Positions 48,930 to 56,218 of a stretch of 64,000 bases of DNA are shown one piece after another; position 1 is the first letter of the stretch, and the number at the start of each line of letters is the position of its first letter. The stretch comes from Humidesulfovibrio mexicanus (GTDB taxonomy: Bacteria > Desulfobacterota > Desulfovibrionia > Desulfovibrionales > Desulfovibrionaceae): assembly GCF_900188225.1 (NCBI RefSeq), contig NZ_FZOC01000004.1, forward strand, positions 161,537 to 225,536. Direction: 5' to 3'. The position numbers were made by a program, and so were the translations under genes. The notes under the pieces are model-generated. The model ran no database searches. It was not told the origin of the DNA and worked only from the letters and a program-made list of their open reading frames with translations.

Positions 48930-50234
48930 ATGATCGAACGCTACTCCCGCCCGGAAATGGCCGCCCTCTGGACCATGGAGGCGCGCTTCGGCGCGTGGCT
49001 TGAGGTCGAACTGGCCGTGTGCGAGGCCTGGGCCAGCCTTGGCGTCATCCCCCAGGCCGACATGGAATCCATCCGCGCCAAGGCCTCTTTCGACGTGGAC
49101 CGCATCCTCGAAATCGAAGAAAAGACCCGGCACGACGTCATCGCGTTTTTGACCGCCGTGGAGGAAAAAGTGGGCGCAAGCGCCCGCTTCATCCATCTGG
49201 GCTGCACCAGCTCCGACATCGTGGACACGGCCAACGCCGTGCTGCTGGTGCGGGCGGGCGCAATCATCCTGGCCGACATCGACAAGGTCCTGGGCGTCCT
49301 CAAGACGATGGCCTTGGCGCACAAGGACCTGCTCTGCATGGGCCGCACCCACGGCATCCACGCCGAACCCACCAGCTTCGGCCTCAAAATGGCGGGATTC
49401 TATGCGGAATTCTGTCGGCACAGGAAACGCTTCGCCGATGCGCTGGAAAACATCCGCGTGGGCAAGATTTCCGGCGCCGTGGGCACCTACGCGCACCTTT
49501 CGCCCGAACTGGAGGCCAAGGCCTGCGCCATCCTGGGCCTTGCCGCCGACCCCGTGAGCACGCAGATCATCCAGCGCGACCGCCACGCCCAGTACTTCAC
49601 CGCCCTGGCCCTCTTGGGCGGCGGCGTGGAGCGCCTGTGCACCGAGCTCAGGCATCTGCAGCGCACCGAGGTGCTGGAGGTGGAGGAAGGCTTCGCCAAG
49701 GGGCAGAAGGGCTCCTCGGCCATGCCGCACAAGAAGAATCCCATCAGCGCGGAGAATCTTTGCGGGCTCTCGCGCCTGCTTCGCACCAACGCCTTGGCCA
49801 GCATGGAGAACATGCCCCTCTGGCACGAACGCGACATCAGCCATTCCAGCGTGGAGCGCGTCATCATGCCCGACTCCACCATCCTGGCCGACTACATCCT
49901 GAACCGCCTGGCGGGGTTGCTCTCGAACCTGCGGGTGATCCCGGAAAACATGGCCCGAAACCTGGAGGCCTCGTACGGGCTGTTCTACTCCCAGCGCGTG
50001 CTGGTGGCCCTGGTGGACCTGGGCCTGCCCCGGCAGAAGGCCTACGAGATGGTCCAGGCCGCGGCCATGCGCTCCTGGGACGCCAAGAGCCCGTTCAAGG
50101 ACCAGGTGCTTGGCGATACGCAGATTCGTGAACACTTGACTCTAGAAACTCTTGAAAGATTGTTCGACCCCTGCTATTACTTGCGCTACGTAAGCGCCAT
50201 ATTCGACCGGGTGTTCGGCCAGGGACAGGAGTAA
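48930..50234 (+). CDS. purB: Adenylosuccinate lyase
   Basis: A 434-residue protein of the fumarase/aspartase superfamily. It has SSDIVDTANAV, RTHGIHAEPT and the signature GSSAMPHKKNPI. It splits adenylosuccinate and SAICAR in purine synthesis, in the cytoplasm. ATG 48930 is used, with a GGAAG site upstream. pyrE begins 2 bases after its stop, giving a purine-pyrimidine operon. Confidence 0.96.
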   Translation: MIERYSRPEMAALWTMEARFGAWLEVELAVCEAWASLGVIPQADMESIRAKASFDVDRILEIEEKTRHDVIAFLTAVEEKVGASARFIHLGCTSSDIVDTANAVLLVRAGAIILADIDKVLGVLKTMALAHKDLLCMGRTHGIHAEPTSFGLKMAGFYAEFCRHRKRFADALENIRVGKISGAVGTYAHLSPELEAKACAILGLAADPVSTQIIQRDRHAQYFTALALLGGGVERLCTELRHLQRTEVLEVEEGFAKGQKGSSAMPHKKNPISAENLCGLSRLLRTNALASMENMPLWHERDISHSSVERVIMPDSTILADYILNRLAGLLSNLRVIPENMARNLEASYGLFYSQRVLVALVDLGLPRQKAYEMVQAAAMRSWDAKSPFKDQVLGDTQIREHLTLETLERLFDPCYYLRYVSAIFDRVFGQGQE

Positions 50235-50236
50235 TC

Positions 50237-50797
50237 GTGAAGGATTCCAAAGCGAAACTTGCGCGTCTGCTCATGGCGTTGTCTTACGTGGAGGGAGAGG
50301 TGACCCTCACCTCCGGCCGCAAGAGCGACTACTACTTCGACTGCAAACAGACCGCCCTCAACCCCGAGGGGGGCTATCTCATCGGCAAGCTGTTCCTCGA
50401 CATGCTCACGGGCACGGGCGCTCACGCCGTGGCGGGCATGACCCTTGGGGCCGATCCGTTGGTCACGGCGGTGTCCGTGCTTTCGCACCTGGAGGGCAGC
50501 CCCCTGCCCGCGGTGATCATCCGCAAGCAGTCCAAGGGGCACGGCACCGACCAGTACCTGGAAGGCCTCAAAAACGTCGAGCCCGGCGCGGAAATCGCCC
50601 TGCTCGAGGACGTGGTGACCACCGGCGGCACGCTGGTCACCTCTGCGGAGCGGGTTCGCGCGGCCGGGTTCACGGTGGGCGCGGTGCTCTGCGTGCTGGA
50701 CCGCGAGGAAGGCGGCACGCAGCGTCTGGCCGAGGCGGGCCTGACGCTCAAGTCCATTTTCACGCGCAAGGAGCTCTTGGCCGCAGCCAAGGGCTAG
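50237..50797 (+). CDS. pyrE: Orotate phosphoribosyltransferase
   Basis: A 186-residue protein with the PRPP-binding motif ALLEDVVTTGGTLV and TSGRKSDYYFDCKQ, matching PyrE. It joins orotate to PRPP in UMP synthesis. GTG 50237 is the start, with AGGAG overlapping the purB stop. 74 bases separate it from the next gene. Confidence 0.93.
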   Translation: MKDSKAKLARLLMALSYVEGEVTLTSGRKSDYYFDCKQTALNPEGGYLIGKLFLDMLTGTGAHAVAGMTLGADPLVTAVSVLSHLEGSPLPAVIIRKQSKGHGTDQYLEGLKNVEPGAEIALLEDVVTTGGTLVTSAERVRAAGFTVGAVLCVLDREEGGTQRLAEAGLTLKSIFTRKELLAAAKG

Positions 50798-50871: not shown

Positions 50872-52143
50872 TTGAAAACCTTACGCACCCTCCTCCTTCT
50901 GGCCGGTTTGGCCCTGACTCCAGCCCTTGCCCTGGCGGCCGGAACCGGCTGGGTGACGCACGTCAACTCGCAGCCCTCCGGGCCGGAGTTTTTCCTTGGC
51001 ATCGACAAGGAGACGCAGACGTTTTTCATGTTCGGCAAGCGAAGCCCGCTCACGGTGCTGCGCAAGCTCGTGTGCGCCACGGGCCAGGCCGAGGGCGACA
51101 AGCAGAAGGAAGGCGACAAGCGCACCCCAGAGGGCGTGTACTTCGTTGAAGAAAAGGTGCCCGGCAAACTCGACTTCGCACTATACGGCGACCGCGCCTT
51201 CAGTCTGAACTTCCCCAATCCCGTGGATCGCCTCAAGGGCAAGACCGGGCACGGCATCTGGATCCACGGCCGCGGCAAGCAGCTGCTGGCCCAGGACACG
51301 CGCGGCTGCGTGGCCCTAAGCGCCCAGGACATCAAGAGCCTGGACGGGCAGATTCCGTCCGGCACGCCGGTGGTCATCGCCAAGAAGCTTACCTGGAGCA
51401 AGGACCAGGGCAGCGACGCCACGGCCCAGCACCTGTCCGAGCGCGTGCGCCAGTGGGCCGGCGATTGGCAGAACAAGCGGGAACGCTTCTTCGACTACTT
51501 CCAGCCGGAAAAATTCGCCCAGACCGAGGGCGTTTCCTTTACGCAGTTCAAGAACCACAAGCTGGGCATCTTCGCCCGGCAGCCCTGGATTCACGTCATG
51601 GTGGACAACGTGCGCGCCATCCAGGGGCCGGACTACTGGGTCACCACCTTCGACCAATACTACCGCACCCAGGACCTCATCTCCGCCGTGGGCAAACGCT
51701 TCTACTGGCAAAAGGAGAAGGACGGCGCCTGGCGCATCGTGGGCGGGGAATACGTCGACGCCCCCACCGCCGCGCTGGAGACCCGCTATCTCCGCTCCAA
51801 GCAGCCGGAGGTCGACAGCCTGCTCAAAGGCTGGCTGGAGTCCTGGCTTGCGGCCGACATCGACAAATACATGGCCTACTACGACGAGGACGCCAACAAC
51901 GGCCGCCAGCATGGCGCCAAGGCCATTCGCGAGTACAAGCAGGCCCTGTGGACCAGCAAGACCCCGGTGCGCATCGCCGCCGACAAGGTGGAGGTGGCCA
52001 TCCACAAGCAGGGGCTGAAGGTCAGCTTCGAGCAGATTTACGAGGACAGCTCCGGCCACGCTGACAGGGGCGCAAAGACCCTGGTCATCGCGCCCAGGGG
52101 CGACGGTTGGGTGATCGTGAGCGAAGCCTGGGGCAAAAGCTGA
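50872..52143 (+). CDS. L,D-transpeptidase-fold carboxypeptidase, Csd6/Pgp2-like
   Basis: A 423-residue exported protein, TTG start at 50872. A signal peptide (LLLLAGLALTPALALAAG) precedes a YkuD-type domain with HGRGKQ at about His131-134 and the catalytic DTRGCVAL, Cys near 146. After the domain, a C-terminal part (about 300-423) looks like an NTF2-like fold, with DIDKYMAYYDEDANN. This two-domain order is that of Helicobacter Csd6 and Campylobacter Pgp2, which trim tetrapeptide stems to tripeptides or remove D-Ala. It would act in the periplasm. The stop overlaps the next ATG by one base, and the same unit encodes a Csd4-like peptidase. Confidence 0.85.
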   Translation: MKTLRTLLLLAGLALTPALALAAGTGWVTHVNSQPSGPEFFLGIDKETQTFFMFGKRSPLTVLRKLVCATGQAEGDKQKEGDKRTPEGVYFVEEKVPGKLDFALYGDRAFSLNFPNPVDRLKGKTGHGIWIHGRGKQLLAQDTRGCVALSAQDIKSLDGQIPSGTPVVIAKKLTWSKDQGSDATAQHLSERVRQWAGDWQNKRERFFDYFQPEKFAQTEGVSFTQFKNHKLGIFARQPWIHVMVDNVRAIQGPDYWVTTFDQYYRTQDLISAVGKRFYWQKEKDGAWRIVGGEYVDAPTAALETRYLRSKQPEVDSLLKGWLESWLAADIDKYMAYYDEDANNGRQHGAKAIREYKQALWTSKTPVRIAADKVEVAIHKQGLKVSFEQIYEDSSGHADRGAKTLVIAPRGDGWVIVSEAWGKS

Positions 52144-52811
52144 TGAAGAACGCCAGCTACAGCGTGCTGCTCATGCGGGACGACGCCGACGTCAAGACGT
52201 TGCGCGTCAGCCCACGGCGGCTCAAGCTGTTGCTGTGGGTCGGCTCTGTGCTGGCCGTGGTGGTGCTGGTGGGGCTTGTGGTGGGCCTGCGCTCCTTTGT
52301 GGGCTACCGCAGCGTGCTGGCCGAACGCCGCGACCTGGAAGTGCGCCTGGCCGAGGCCCAGGTGGAGTTGGAACGCCTGGGCAACCTGGAGAAGATCCAG
52401 AATACCGCGCCAGCGGCCGGAAAGAACGGCAAGGCGTCCACGGAAAAGGCCGTACAGCCGACATCGCGGGCCTTCGCTCGGGTGGACCTCGGCACCATCG
52501 CCGTGGAGAACTTCAAGGCCCAGCTCTCGGGCGAGACCATCACCACCAGCTTCGACCTGAACAACCGCGCGCAGGGGGCGTCCTCGGGCGGCATTTCGCT
52601 TTTGCTGCTGCGCACCGACGGCGCCCTGACCGAACTTTCCGTGCAGAACGCTTCCGACCTCACCTACCAGATCCAACGCTTCAAGCGCATCTCCGCCACA
52701 GCCAGCGCCCCGCGGGGCCTCACCCGGAAGGATGTCCTGGGGCTGCGCGTGGAGATACGAAACGCAAACGGGGAAGTGATCCTTGGCGAAACGTACCCTC
52801 TGGGCGGCTAG
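52143..52811 (+). CDS. Membrane-anchored coiled-coil periplasmic protein between the shape peptidases
   Basis: A 222-residue protein. The N-terminus, SVLLMRDDADVKTLRVSP, then a helix (LLLWVGSVLAVVVLVGLVVGL) and a leucine-rich coiled coil near residues 60-90, is shared with membrane-anchored M23 peptidases of related bacteria. However, no HxH/LytM motifs follow. The periplasmic C-terminal half is beta-rich. It could be an anchor or regulator of the flanking hydrolases. Start ATG 52143 overlaps the previous stop (TGATG). It overlaps the next gene by 29 bases. Confidence 0.72.
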   Translation: MKNASYSVLLMRDDADVKTLRVSPRRLKLLLWVGSVLAVVVLVGLVVGLRSFVGYRSVLAERRDLEVRLAEAQVELERLGNLEKIQNTAPAAGKNGKASTEKAVQPTSRAFARVDLGTIAVENFKAQLSGETITTSFDLNNRAQGASSGGISLLLLRTDGALTELSVQNASDLTYQIQRFKRISATASAPRGLTRKDVLGLRVEIRNANGEVILGETYPLGG

Positions 52812-54609
52812 CTTCGCGCTGACGCTCCTTTTGCTGCTGCCGCTCGCCTGCCTCGGGGCATCGCGCAGCAGTTTCGTCTTCTTCGAGGGCACCCAGTACC
52901 CTCTGCATGTCGTGTTCATCCAGGGCGAGAAACCCGGTCCCACGGTCATGATCCAGGGCGGCATTCAGGGCGACGAGCCCACCGGCTTTCTGGCCGCGCA
53001 GATTCTGGCGGAAAGCCGTGTCCGCACGGGCAACCTCATCGTGGTGCCCCGGGCCAACGTGCCCTCCATCCATGTGCACCAGCGGGCGGTGAACGTGGAC
53101 ATGAACCGCCGTTTCGACCGCGACTACAACCAGTTCTACGAGGACCGGCTGGCGCGCGCCGTCCGGTTCCTGCTCTCCCAGTCCAGCGCGCTCATCCACC
53201 TGCACGAGGGCTCCGGCTTCTATGACCCGGAATACGTGAACCCCCTGCGGAACCCCTCGCGCTGGGGACAAAGCATCATCATCGACGCCAACGTCCATGA
53301 CAGCCTGGACCTGGCCCGGCTCGTAAATTCCGCCCTGCGGGAAATCAACGCCTCCGTGCGGGAAAAGGACTACGAGTTCAAGCTGTTCAACACGCGCACC
53401 TTCGAGTCCGACAGCCGCTACGCCCAGGAGATGCGCAAGTCGCTCACTTTTTACGCCCTGGCCAACCTGAACATCCCGGCCATGGCCGTGGAAGTGAGCA
53501 AGAACATCGGGGCGCTGGGCTGGAAGGTCAAACATCAAGTCTACGCCACCGGCGTGCTGCTCCGGCATTGCGGGGTGGACATCGTGCCGCCGTCCGTGGA
53601 CGAGCGGGACGTGCAAAGCCAGTTCGAGCGCGACTGCCGCCCCAAGATCAACGGCACCCCGCTGGACGGACGACCGCTGGCCATCCGCTCCGGCGGCACC
53701 ATCACCGTGGACCCGGCCTCCATCGGCCAGAACGCCGACAAGGGCCAGGCCGTGGCGGTGTTCGCCTCCGACCGCCAAGGCGTGAACATCGTGGATTCTC
53801 CGCGCATGGCCCTGGAGCGTTTCAAGGAACTGGAGACGCGCGTGGACGGCCGCAAGGTCAGCTCCACCACGGTGCGCTTCGCTGGGGCCATGCCTCCCCC
53901 GCTGCCGGCCGGGCCGCCGGTGTTCGTCTGCTGGCTTAACGGCAAGCCCGTGCAGGTGCGCCAGGGCGAGACCCTGCACGCCCTGGTGGGAGACCAGCTG
54001 GTCATCGAAGGCGTGCTGGGGAGCAAATGGCGCGAGGTGCTGAACTTCAAGGGCTACACGGCCCGCCCCACCGACAACGACGGCCAGGACATGGGCTGGG
54101 AGATCATCCTCGATCCGGAGAGCTTCATCGACCGCTACCGCCTGCCCGGCCCGCAGGCCGATGTGGCCCGGTACCAGGTGCTGCGCGAAACCAAAGGCGC
54201 GCGGCCGTCCTCCTTCTATGTTGACGTGGCGCCGCGGATTGTGCGCTCGGTGAAGCTTGTGGACGCCAAGGGACAGGTGATCACCCTGCGCTGGTCCAGC
54301 GGAGGCGAGGTGGCCCTTCCCGCAGGCCAATACACCGTGGCCGAAACCGCCAGCAACGGCCCGGCCAACCGGATCCTCTCCCTGGCGGGCGGAAGGCCGC
54401 TCAGGCAGGGGGACACATTCCGCGTGGAGCCTGGCAAGCCGCTGCTCTTTTCCCTGCGGCAGGCCACCACCTTTGCCGCCCTGGGCACCATGACCCTGGT
54501 GCCAAAGGCCCAGGAAGACCGGGCGGCCAGAAACGACACCCAGCTTGTGAGCGATGGGCAAAGCGCGCGCTATTGTGGCGAACTGCCCCCGCCCGGCTCC
54601 GTCTACTAG
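52783..54609 (+). CDS. M14-type D,L-carboxypeptidase, Csd4/Pgp1-like
   Basis: A 608-residue exported protein. TTG 52783 begins a signal peptide (LWAASFALTLLLLLPLACLGAS) and overlaps the previous gene by 29 bases. The M14 zinc site appears as GGIQGDEPTG, where Gln62 replaces the usual His and Glu65 is kept, and LIHLHEGSGFYDP supplies the His ligand (139 or 141). AMAVEVSKNIGALG fits the region of the catalytic Glu. This Gln-for-His feature is known from Helicobacter Csd4 and Campylobacter Pgp1, which cut the muramyl tripeptide to dipeptide and are needed for helical shape. The C-terminal 300 residues are beta-rich and probably extra domains. Confidence 0.87.
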   Translation: MAKRTLWAASFALTLLLLLPLACLGASRSSFVFFEGTQYPLHVVFIQGEKPGPTVMIQGGIQGDEPTGFLAAQILAESRVRTGNLIVVPRANVPSIHVHQRAVNVDMNRRFDRDYNQFYEDRLARAVRFLLSQSSALIHLHEGSGFYDPEYVNPLRNPSRWGQSIIIDANVHDSLDLARLVNSALREINASVREKDYEFKLFNTRTFESDSRYAQEMRKSLTFYALANLNIPAMAVEVSKNIGALGWKVKHQVYATGVLLRHCGVDIVPPSVDERDVQSQFERDCRPKINGTPLDGRPLAIRSGGTITVDPASIGQNADKGQAVAVFASDRQGVNIVDSPRMALERFKELETRVDGRKVSSTTVRFAGAMPPPLPAGPPVFVCWLNGKPVQVRQGETLHALVGDQLVIEGVLGSKWREVLNFKGYTARPTDNDGQDMGWEIILDPESFIDRYRLPGPQADVARYQVLRETKGARPSSFYVDVAPRIVRSVKLVDAKGQVITLRWSSGGEVALPAGQYTVAETASNGPANRILSLAGGRPLRQGDTFRVEPGKPLLFSLRQATTFAALGTMTLVPKAQEDRAARNDTQLVSDGQSARYCGELPPPGSVY

Positions 54610-54634
54610 CCTCCCGCCAGCGCCGGACGCAAAA

Positions 54635-54660
54635 AAGGCCCCTGCCATGGCAGGGGCCTT
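54635..54660. terminator. Bidirectional terminator, csd4-like gene / tRNA-Thr
   Basis: AAGGCCCCTGCC (54635-54646) pairs with the reverse complement at 54649-54660 around ATGG. A run of A on the left gives TTTTTT for the minus-strand tRNA, and TTT lies on the right for the plus strand. Confidence 0.85.
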
Positions 54661-54670
54661 TGCATTTCCG

Positions 54671-54746
<76 letters not shown>

Positions 54747-55141: not shown

Positions 55142-56218
55142 CTACTTGATTTTGACGAGCTTCCCGGCCTTGGGCGCGGCGACTTGGGGCATGAGCGCGA
55201 CGGCCCGCGCCTTCTCTCCGGCCATGAGGTGATAGTAGCGTTCCTGCGTGGTAGCGATGCTGCTGTGGCCCAGGAGGGCGGACACGGCGGCGAGATCGGC
55301 CCCGCCCTGGAGCAGCACCGATGCGAACAAGTGGCGCACGTCGTAGGGAGTGACGGGGTAGGTGATGCCAGCGCGCTTGATGGCAGTCTTGAGGCTGCGG
55401 TAGACCTGTTTCACCGGCCTGCCCTTGTACTCAATCAGGTAGGCGCTCTTGGCCTCCTGGCGCATGATGAGCAGCCGGGCGCGAAAGTCCGGGGTGATCG
55501 GCACGATGCGGCTGGCCCCCTCGGTCTTGGTGCCACGCACATGGACGAGCAGGCCTTCAAAGTCAACGTCAGCCCAGCGGATGCTGAACAACTCGGAGGG
55601 ACCAGGGCGGGTGCCCAGGTTGGCCTCCACCTCCAGAGCCCAGGAAAGGTGGGGATCGGCTGCGGCGATGATGCGGCGCAGACCGTCCAAGGTCAGGTGC
55701 ATTTCCTTCTTGCGCTCGGGCGTCTGCTTCCAATCGTCCAAGGGGCTTGCCCCGGTGATCTTCTTTTTGACACCGAATTTGAACACGGAGCGCAGATAGC
55801 CCATGTAGCGGTTGACCGTGGGGGTACTCTTGTCTGCCCACGGGCCGCCCGGCTCCACCATCTTGAGGATGTCTTGATACTCCAGTTGATCGACGGGGCG
55901 TTTGCAAAGCACCGGCAGGATGGCATCGTTGAGCAGGGCCGCGAATTCCGTGCGAAACTGTTCGCCTACACCGCGCATTTTGGCATCGTGGAGATAGAGC
56001 TGGGCGAGTTGGTCAAGGAACACGCCGGAGGCGTTGCGGGGGACCTGCCCCTTGGCGCGCATCAGGGCGATCTCGGCAAGCCGGATACCCGCCTGGCGCT
56101 GGGCGGCTGGGCCAAGGCCAAAGTATTCCTTGATTCGCTTCCGGCTTCCCGGCAGCGAATAGGCGATGTAGTAGCCGCCCGTCTTGTGGAATAGAACCTT
56201 GCCCATGCCTTGCGCCAT
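55142..56218 (-). CDS. int: Tyrosine recombinase (phage-type integrase)
   Basis: A 358-residue integrase. The N-terminal part binds DNA; the catalytic part holds Arg in ANLGTRPGPSEL, the box YDVRHLFASVLL and LGHSSIATTQERYYHL with the Tyr nucleophile. The usual first His of HxxR is Tyr here (YDVR), a known variation. It recombines the element into and out of the tRNA-Pro site at 54987-55032. ATG 56218 or 56206 are both possible. The excisionase gene ends 3 bases upstream. Confidence 0.92.
   Translation of the reverse strand: MAQGMGKVLFHKTGGYYIAYSLPGSRKRIKEYFGLGPAAQRQAGIRLAEIALMRAKGQVPRNASGVFLDQLAQLYLHDAKMRGVGEQFRTEFAALLNDAILPVLCKRPVDQLEYQDILKMVEPGGPWADKSTPTVNRYMGYLRSVFKFGVKKKITGASPLDDWKQTPERKKEMHLTLDGLRRIIAAADPHLSWALEVEANLGTRPGPSELFSIRWADVDFEGLLVHVRGTKTEGASRIVPITPDFRARLLIMRQEAKSAYLIEYKGRPVKQVYRSLKTAIKRAGITYPVTPYDVRHLFASVLLQGGADLAAVSALLGHSSIATTQERYYHLMAGEKARAVALMPQVAAPKAGKLVKIK

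Follow-up and report, generated by a model that had tools for sequence, protein, structure and literature searches.

A candidate bactofilin-linked peptidoglycan-trimming operon with an adaptor-like bitopic protein in Humidesulfovibrio mexicanus

Humidesulfovibrio is a vibrio-shaped genus with a G+C content of 65.0–65.6% (PMC9174804, as excerpted). Three overlapping genes in a 64,000-nucleotide stretch of the 3.52 Mb genome of Humidesulfovibrio mexicanus (contig NZ_FZOC01000004.1, positions 161,537 to 225,536 of the forward strand; hereafter the window) raise the question of whether such cells are shaped by enzymes that trim peptidoglycan and, if so, how these enzymes would be positioned. The operon encodes a Csd6-like YkuD protein, a bitopic protein that we call mid, and a peptidase of the M99 family; it lies on the + strand, head to tail, behind purB and an open reading frame (ORF) that we take to be pyrE, and the purB-pyrE-csd6 order was found again in relatives. 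The mid ATG lies within the TGA of the csd6-like gene (ATGA, an overlap of 1 base), and the M99 gene starts 29 bases inside mid; the three ORFs lie at the place given in the original prediction. That prediction had singled out the two enzymes as shape peptidases; mid, which it did not describe, carries the most informative evidence. We consider it probable, at roughly 60%, that the operon is a bactofilin-linked peptidoglycan-trimming shape module, in which mid would dock on bactofilin and position two periplasmic carboxypeptidases.

The first enzyme carries a signal peptide at its N-terminus, as judged by eye, followed by a YkuD domain (PF03734, E 1.6e-16, residues about 44–169) and by Cds6_C (PF24125, E 9.3e-26), which matches in two stretches, 188–290 and about 313–421. 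The two stretches were scored separately in the genome search too, and the match to Bd1075 in the search of solved structures splits in two parts; the double Cds6_C match indicates that the protein has two NTF2-like domains, the second of which can be aligned across all 27 sequences compared. Elsewhere in the phylum, Cds6_C matches twice per reading frame in some genomes and once in others. The HGRGK and DTRGC motifs and the NTF2-like tail that had been read from the letters are all present. The catalytic residues H132 and C146 are invariant in the 27 aligned sequences, H132 is followed by G133, and the sequence C146-V147-A148 places Ala two residues after the catalytic Cys. According to the excerpted text of PMC8938487, it is Ala (Val in Bd1075), not Arg, at this position that marks an LD-carboxypeptidase, and His132-Gly133, Cys146 and Ala148 match what is described for LD-carboxypeptidases there and in the available part of PMC4599014.

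Among solved structures, Bd1075 of Bdellovibrio bacteriovorus ranked first (7o21, E 9.2e-37), ahead of Csd6 of Helicobacter pylori (4xzz, 1.4e-22) and Pgp2 of Campylobacter jejuni (6xj6, 2.1e-18), and the next YkuD protein, 8ikr, followed at 2.4e-7. The first protein is thus strongly predicted to be an LD-carboxypeptidase of the Csd6/Pgp2/Bd1075 family; the family proposed by the original prediction stands, and its closest solved relative is Bd1075, not Csd6. Like Bd1075, it would be a secreted YkuD LD-carboxypeptidase with an NTF2-like tail, and both of its NTF2-like regions align to the single one of Bd1075, which is encoded monocistronically, whereas the window protein has two such domains and is encoded alongside mid and the M99 enzyme. 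Csd6 and Pgp2 likewise have the YkuD His-Gly-Cys signature, Ala at Cys+2 and an NTF2-like tail; they differ by an N-terminal dimerisation domain of their own and by a single NTF2 domain (PMC8938487, PMC4599014, both as excerpted). Judged by length, this dimerisation domain is absent from the window protein, in which YkuD begins at residue 44, as in Bd1075. The excerpted account of Bd1075 finds it required for the vibrioid curvature of B. bacteriovorus (PMC8938487).

The second enzyme, consisting of a signal peptide (by eye), a catalytic domain at about 50–265 and a C-terminal beta-rich region, matches Peptidase_M99 (PF17033, E 1.5e-35, 123.4 bits, cut-off 27), a family described in Pfam as 'carboxypeptidase controlling helical cell shape'; it also scores, more weakly, above the cut-off of AstE_AspA_cat (40 bits, cut-off 25). 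A generic M14 identity was discarded, PF00246 matching nothing in the genome. The motifs GGIQGDEP, with Gln in place of the zinc His, and HLHEGSGFY were confirmed, and the best solved match is Csd4 (4q6m, E 3.6e-27), whose metal ligands Gln46/Glu49/His128 align with Gln62/Glu65/His141 and whose Arg86, Asn93, Arg94 and Glu222 align with R101, N108, R109 and E237. The Csd4 metal motif and substrate residues are those described in the accessible part of PMC4220969; the further substrate residues H139, R160, M217 and T222 were placed by hand on the alignment. Invariant across 29 sequences are Q62, E65, R101, N108, R109, H139, H141, R160, T222 and E237. In some M99 relatives (L292, L298, L320, L322), the metal-binding Gln is replaced by His (GIHGDE) or Asp (GIDGDE).

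The AlphaFold2 model of the M99 protein reached a mean predicted local distance difference test (pLDDT) score of 78.6, with poor loops at 93–119 and 145–159, and a fold search with it returned Csd4 (4wcn) at E 4.1e-24, the next family following at 4.7e-7. Of the three domains of the family (carboxypeptidase, beta-barrel and Ig-like), the catalytic one is clear; the C-terminal part is beta-rich in the model and has no M99_C match in Pfam. Measured over Csd4, the template modelling score (TM-score) is only 0.55. Accordingly, the protein shares with Csd4 (4wck/4q6m) and Pgp1 the Q-x-x-E...H motif, both key Arg residues, the general-base Glu and the residues contacting diaminopimelate (Dap), and it is strongly predicted to be a D,L-carboxypeptidase of this family. 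The unrelated LD-transpeptidases and His-ligand M14 enzymes that the original prediction had named as competing matches ranked behind Bd1075/Csd6/Pgp2 and Csd4 by many orders of magnitude.

The original prediction had these genes as known mainly from Epsilonproteobacteria, but the two families are common in this phylum: in a sample of 247 of its genomes, Cds6_C was found in 65 and M99 in 51, and the window's own family accounts for 8 in either count. Bdellovibrio, too, owes its shape to a relative of Csd6, as far as the excerpted text of PMC8938487 goes.

How, then, might two such enzymes be connected to the cytoskeleton? In the AlphaFold2 model of mid (mean pLDDT 86.7), a beta-hairpin (strands 6–9 and 19–22) is followed by a long helix (24–88) containing a membrane span and a coiled coil, then by a disordered linker and an immunoglobulin-like (Ig-like) beta-sandwich (119–219), from which a cytoplasmic hairpin, one membrane helix and a periplasmic sandwich are predicted. 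No Pfam family matched mid at E <= 1, and when 30 homologues were compared with Pfam, no family occurred in more than two of them, among the 25 of 36 families listed; within the same scope, an M23 domain is absent from mid and its homologues, the Ig-like fold taking its place. A link to DUF6776, which we take to be gammaproteobacterial, was sought and not seen among the families listed for the homologues. A GspM- or secretion-type origin was rejected (NCBIfam T2SS_GspM, 14 bits only, cut-off 60), and a resemblance to FtsB in the solved-structure search (E 0.046) was put down to the common membrane helix and coiled coil. The fold search yielded weak Ig-like matches only (best 1nep, E 5.2e-4), uninformative as to function.

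Mid was found in 44 of 59 relatives, and its profile matches 29 of the 247 phylum genomes, mostly weakly; the window's family supplies 8 of the 29. Some of these matches fall on the N-terminal parts of M23 peptidases (G114:C24 and G139:C399, with an LmdC-like M23 gene at the same spot). Aligned by hhalign with the N-terminal regions of 29 LmdC-like M23 proteins, mid reached probabilities of 95.9% and 97.1% over 75–77 columns in two separate sets. Since this run had only two unrelated control families, column shuffles were added: the scores of 47.3 and 55.3 lie above anything seen in 60 region-wise shuffles per set (at most 26.4 and 27.2, respectively), and shuffling the hairpin columns alone gave at most 33.7 and 40.3. 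By these profile comparisons, mid is homologous to LmdC-type M23 peptidases in its N-terminal region, from the hairpin through the membrane helix to the coiled coil. At one locus (L279:8033-8932), the genome's LmdC-like M23 gene stands directly before flagellar genes, presumably FliR- and FlhB-like, and not beside bactofilin.

The excerpted text of PMC10945521 reports that the cytoplasmic hairpin of LmdC binds bactofilin and decides its localisation, and that in Rhodospirillum it directs bactofilin to the inner curve. The LmdC-type M23 enzymes and bactofilin BacA of Hyphomonas and Rhodospirillum treated there thus resemble the present case in hairpin, membrane helix, coiled coil and linkage to a bactofilin gene; mid differs in having an Ig-like domain where LmdC has M23, so that catalysis would fall to the separate carboxypeptidases.

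Outside the window's family, 43 genomes are M99-positive; csd6 and M99 lie close together in 33 of them and not in 10, of which two (G059, G098) have an M99 below the cut-off. The corresponding 33 loci outside the window's order were picked because csd6 and M99 lay close, and several end at contig ends. In all 33, csd6 stands 5' of M99 on the same strand. Mid or its fused domain is present in 27, a count that draws on a wider mid profile built partly from loci later counted with it; 23 were already detected at E < 1e-3 by the profile from the window's order only. Conversely, among 50 loci retrieved by mid from named records, csd6 stands beside mid in 47, with M99 as well in 30. The mid beta-domain furthermore forms the C-terminus of YkuD-Cds6_C proteins at three loci of families f22 and f57 (L201, L210, L220; E 9e-15 to 4e-14); L210 has a separate mid gene besides the fusion, and none was seen at L201 and L220. 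The order csd6, bitopic protein, M99 recurs across the phylum.

Two deviating arrangements were also seen. In family f5 (L061–L065, L023, L025, L027, L028), mid stays behind pyrE, two neighbouring csd6-like genes lie elsewhere and M99 was not found; at L025, L027 and L028, mid is preceded by an ORF of about 200 amino acids that looks lipoprotein-like by eye. In one genus (L067, L057 and L058, from G041, G049 and G057), csd6 and M99 occur without mid, and bactofilin is present.

Of the 33 csd6-M99 loci, 15 (from 9 of 18 families) have a bactofilin gene on the same strand no more than 6 kb away, against 0.08–0.16 loci expected by chance for 1–2 bactofilins per genome. The bactofilin profile was first built from three sequences, and hence each counted ORF was checked against Pfam; every one exceeds the Pfam cut-off, several from f21 covering about two thirds of the model only (35–46 bits, cut-off 27.9). 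Bactofilin is also near three csd6-mid loci lacking M99 (L277, L318, L319), and in L275 and L299 the order reads pyrE-csd6-mid-M99-M23-bactofilin. At L314 (8059-8778), a csd6-M99 locus without mid, the bactofilin bears a C-terminal CarboxypepD_reg-like domain.

Co-occurrence points the same way. Bactofilin was found in 51 of the 59 relatives, among them all 44 with mid, and the eight without it (G020, G036, G045, G046, G050, G053, G054, G058) all lack mid and M99 (mid versus bactofilin, Fisher p 2.9e-6, uncorrected for kinship). Outside the window's family, 29 of 30 genomes with mid or its fused domain at a csd6 locus have bactofilin (counted by eye), against a background of 160 of 247; the exception, G172, is an assembly of 78% completeness.

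On this reading, the Csd6/Bd1075-like enzyme would remove the terminal D-alanine from tetrapeptide stems as an LD-carboxypeptidase, its tandem NTF2-like domains binding peptidoglycan or a positional cue, and the M99 enzyme, as a DL-carboxypeptidase, would take meso-Dap off tripeptides. Like its counterpart in LmdC, the cytoplasmic hairpin of mid would dock on filaments of bactofilin; the coiled coil of mid would extend into the periplasm, and its Ig-like domain may hold the Csd6-like enzyme, perhaps the M99 enzyme too. With mid so docked and holding the enzymes, trimming would be concentrated where bactofilin lies, which would help the cell to curve. A more tentative proposal, which we hold at somewhat less than an even chance, is that mid stands for a family of bitopic adaptors, undescribed so far, that link bactofilin as a cytoskeletal element with two secreted carboxypeptidases of the Csd6/Bd1075 and M99 types; encoded in an old csd6-adaptor-M99(-bactofilin) operon of this phylum, the system would set the vibrioid shape of Desulfovibrio-type bacteria.

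Several observations weigh against the bactofilin-linked module. The single bactofilin and the LmdC-like M23 gene of the window's genome lie far from the operon, and no bactofilin was found in any of the 50 loci from named records, with flanks of up to 8 kb. The window's lineage thus has its bactofilin gene away from the operon, and it is co-occurrence and homology that support the link in this lineage. As for this homology, the hairpin by itself scores 21.4 and 21.5, with shuffle maxima of 18.3 and 10.6, that is, near the maximum in one set, so that much of the support comes from the whole hairpin-helix region. Five of the 33 loci have csd6 and M99 without mid (L288, L292, L298, L314, L317) and L311 is borderline, while at L287 and L305 the fused domain occurs by itself, lacking the hairpin, which means that docking would not be universal. 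The small genome G020 (1.5 Mb) lacks all four genes and is a possible counter-example to the link with shape. Weak Cds6_C matches are kept in the bactofilin-less G046, G050 and G054; G046 and G054, lacking bactofilin, mid and M99, nonetheless encode a full-length Csd6 homologue, with Met replacing Trp two residues before the catalytic His, and genus g32, without bactofilin, mid or M99, keeps a Csd6 homologue in two of the four members examined. Finally, of the 49 genomes whose M99 exceeds the cut-off, seven have no bactofilin (G078, G131, G137, G151, G172, G182, G245), and among these seven only G172 carries mid. Bactofilin hence follows mid closely and the enzymes less so, suggesting that it is mid, more than the enzymes, that tracks bactofilin.

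A leaner explanation would accept both enzymes as shape carboxypeptidases and reduce mid to anchoring the Csd6-like enzyme in the membrane or activating it, unrelated to bactofilin, the gene linkage reflecting shared regulation of cell-wall genes. The unlinked bactofilin of the window's genome and of the named-record loci would suit it, as would a fusion involving just the mid beta-domain and Csd6, and mid might resemble LmdC in hairpin, membrane helix and coiled coil for reasons of membrane topology alone. We nevertheless regard it as unlikely in view of the strict retention of bactofilin wherever relatives carry mid, the loss of mid from every bactofilin-less relative, the proximity of bactofilin in almost half of the distant loci, and the fact that the common hairpin is the very part of LmdC shown to bind bactofilin (PMC10945521, as excerpted).

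Alternatively, the YkuD protein might be an LD-transpeptidase or a hydrolase of the DpaA/LdtF type that releases proteins of the envelope from peptidoglycan, with the operon serving envelope attachment or wall recycling, not shape. The weak match to NCBIfam LdtF_DpaA_YafK (E 1.4e-8, 34 bits, cut-off 365) and the one to 8ikr mentioned above are what speaks for it; with Bd1075, Csd6 and Pgp2 better than 8ikr by 11–29 orders of magnitude, two Cds6_C domains and the gene of an M99 enzyme next door, we judge it distinctly improbable. Hardly credible, in our estimation, is that the gene order is a by-product of a stable purB-pyrE neighbourhood of nucleotide synthesis, lacking joint function: pyrE does adjoin csd6 in the window and is near it in 7 of the 33 distant loci, yet the csd6-M99 order is kept in the 26 in which no pyrE was detected within 6 kb, and the fusion of the mid domain to Csd6 and the gene overlaps point to a joint function.

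The M99 enzyme of the operon is not the only M99 type among the relatives. M99 is present in 38 of the 59; in 28 it is a divergent form adjoining csd6, in one (G019) a divergent form elsewhere, and in nine a 'classical' form (259–295 bits) apart from csd6. With 123 bits, the window protein scores below the 259–305 bits of the relatives' 'classical' M99, and its C-terminal region is longer than in Csd4/Pgp1. In none of the nine genomes with the 'classical' form did a further M99 exceed the cut-off (probability 0.0011 on the assumption of independent genomes, which does not hold); a strict mutual exclusion fails, since G266, outside the 59 relatives, has both. In a tree of 58 rows, the window sequence falls in an operon clade of 17 rows (support 100/100) and 17 classical sequences in another (100/100), the two clades of the window's order being on long branches; Csd4 itself is outside the tree, the 'classical' label rests on Pfam score, and L289, L292, L298, L320 and L322 were left out for want of the motif used to cut the domain. 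The window M99, as far as score and tree tell, is an operon-bound subfamily separate from the 'classical' M99 in other genomes of its family, and we read this as a probable replacement of one D,L-carboxypeptidase by another. The Csd4/Pgp1 likeness originally claimed hence stands for family and catalytic residues, with the qualification of a separate subfamily.

The features of the locus are collected in Table 1. Directly 3' of the operon and its inverted repeat lies a tRNA-Thr gene (54671–54746), and past it an integrase-like ORF on the - strand (55142–56218, judged by eye), which makes an integrated element at the tRNA probable. A further M23 peptidase gene (G000:C4:159629-159913) is situated some 1.6 kb before the window begins.

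Table 1. Operon genes and adjoining features in the window
Feature	Coordinates	Strand	Basis
purB, adenylosuccinate lyase, housekeeping neighbour upstream	48930..50234	+	Pfam Lyase_1 and ADSL_C
pyrE-like phosphoribosyltransferase, directly 5' of csd6-like gene	50237..50797	+	Pfam Pribosyltran, under its cut-off
Csd6/Pgp2/Bd1075-like LD-carboxypeptidase (predicted) gene, TTG start	50872..52143	+	Pfam, PDB matches
mid gene, bitopic adaptor-like protein, 222 amino acids, ATG at 52143, stop 52809-52811	52143..52811	+	AlphaFold2 model, homologues
M99 (Csd4/Pgp1-family) D,L-carboxypeptidase-like gene, TTG at 52783	52783..54609	+	Pfam, PDB and fold matches
Perfect 28-base inverted repeat AAAGGCCCCTGCCATGGCAGGGGCCTTT, terminator-like	54634..54661	+	Read directly from the letters; absent from the scan listing

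The arrangement proposed here has a parallel in H. pylori, to whose shape complex we take Csd7 to belong. In that CcmA-Csd5-Csd7-Csd1/Csd2 complex, bactofilin, non-enzymatic transmembrane proteins and peptidoglycan hydrolases likewise come together (PMC9507126, as excerpted), the difference being that bactofilin is tied there to an M23-type hydrolase, and here, as we propose, to Csd6/Csd4-type enzymes through a different adaptor. A literature search from which subscription journals were mostly missing showed, among the titles listed, none on Csd4, Csd6 or bactofilin in curved sulfate reducers and nothing joining bactofilin, carboxypeptidase and gene cluster in Deltaproteobacteria, and shape formation in these organisms seems little studied. 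In Bdellovibrio, the NTF2 domain sends the Csd6 relative to the outer curve, and the authors, in the excerpted text, are aware of no mechanism by which a single side wall would be targeted (PMC8938487). If the present reading is true, mid offers an answer to how such enzymes get placed on one side of the cell, and a candidate transmembrane link between bactofilin and enzyme would carry the bactofilin-hydrolase principle beyond M23 endopeptidases, to carboxypeptidases as well.

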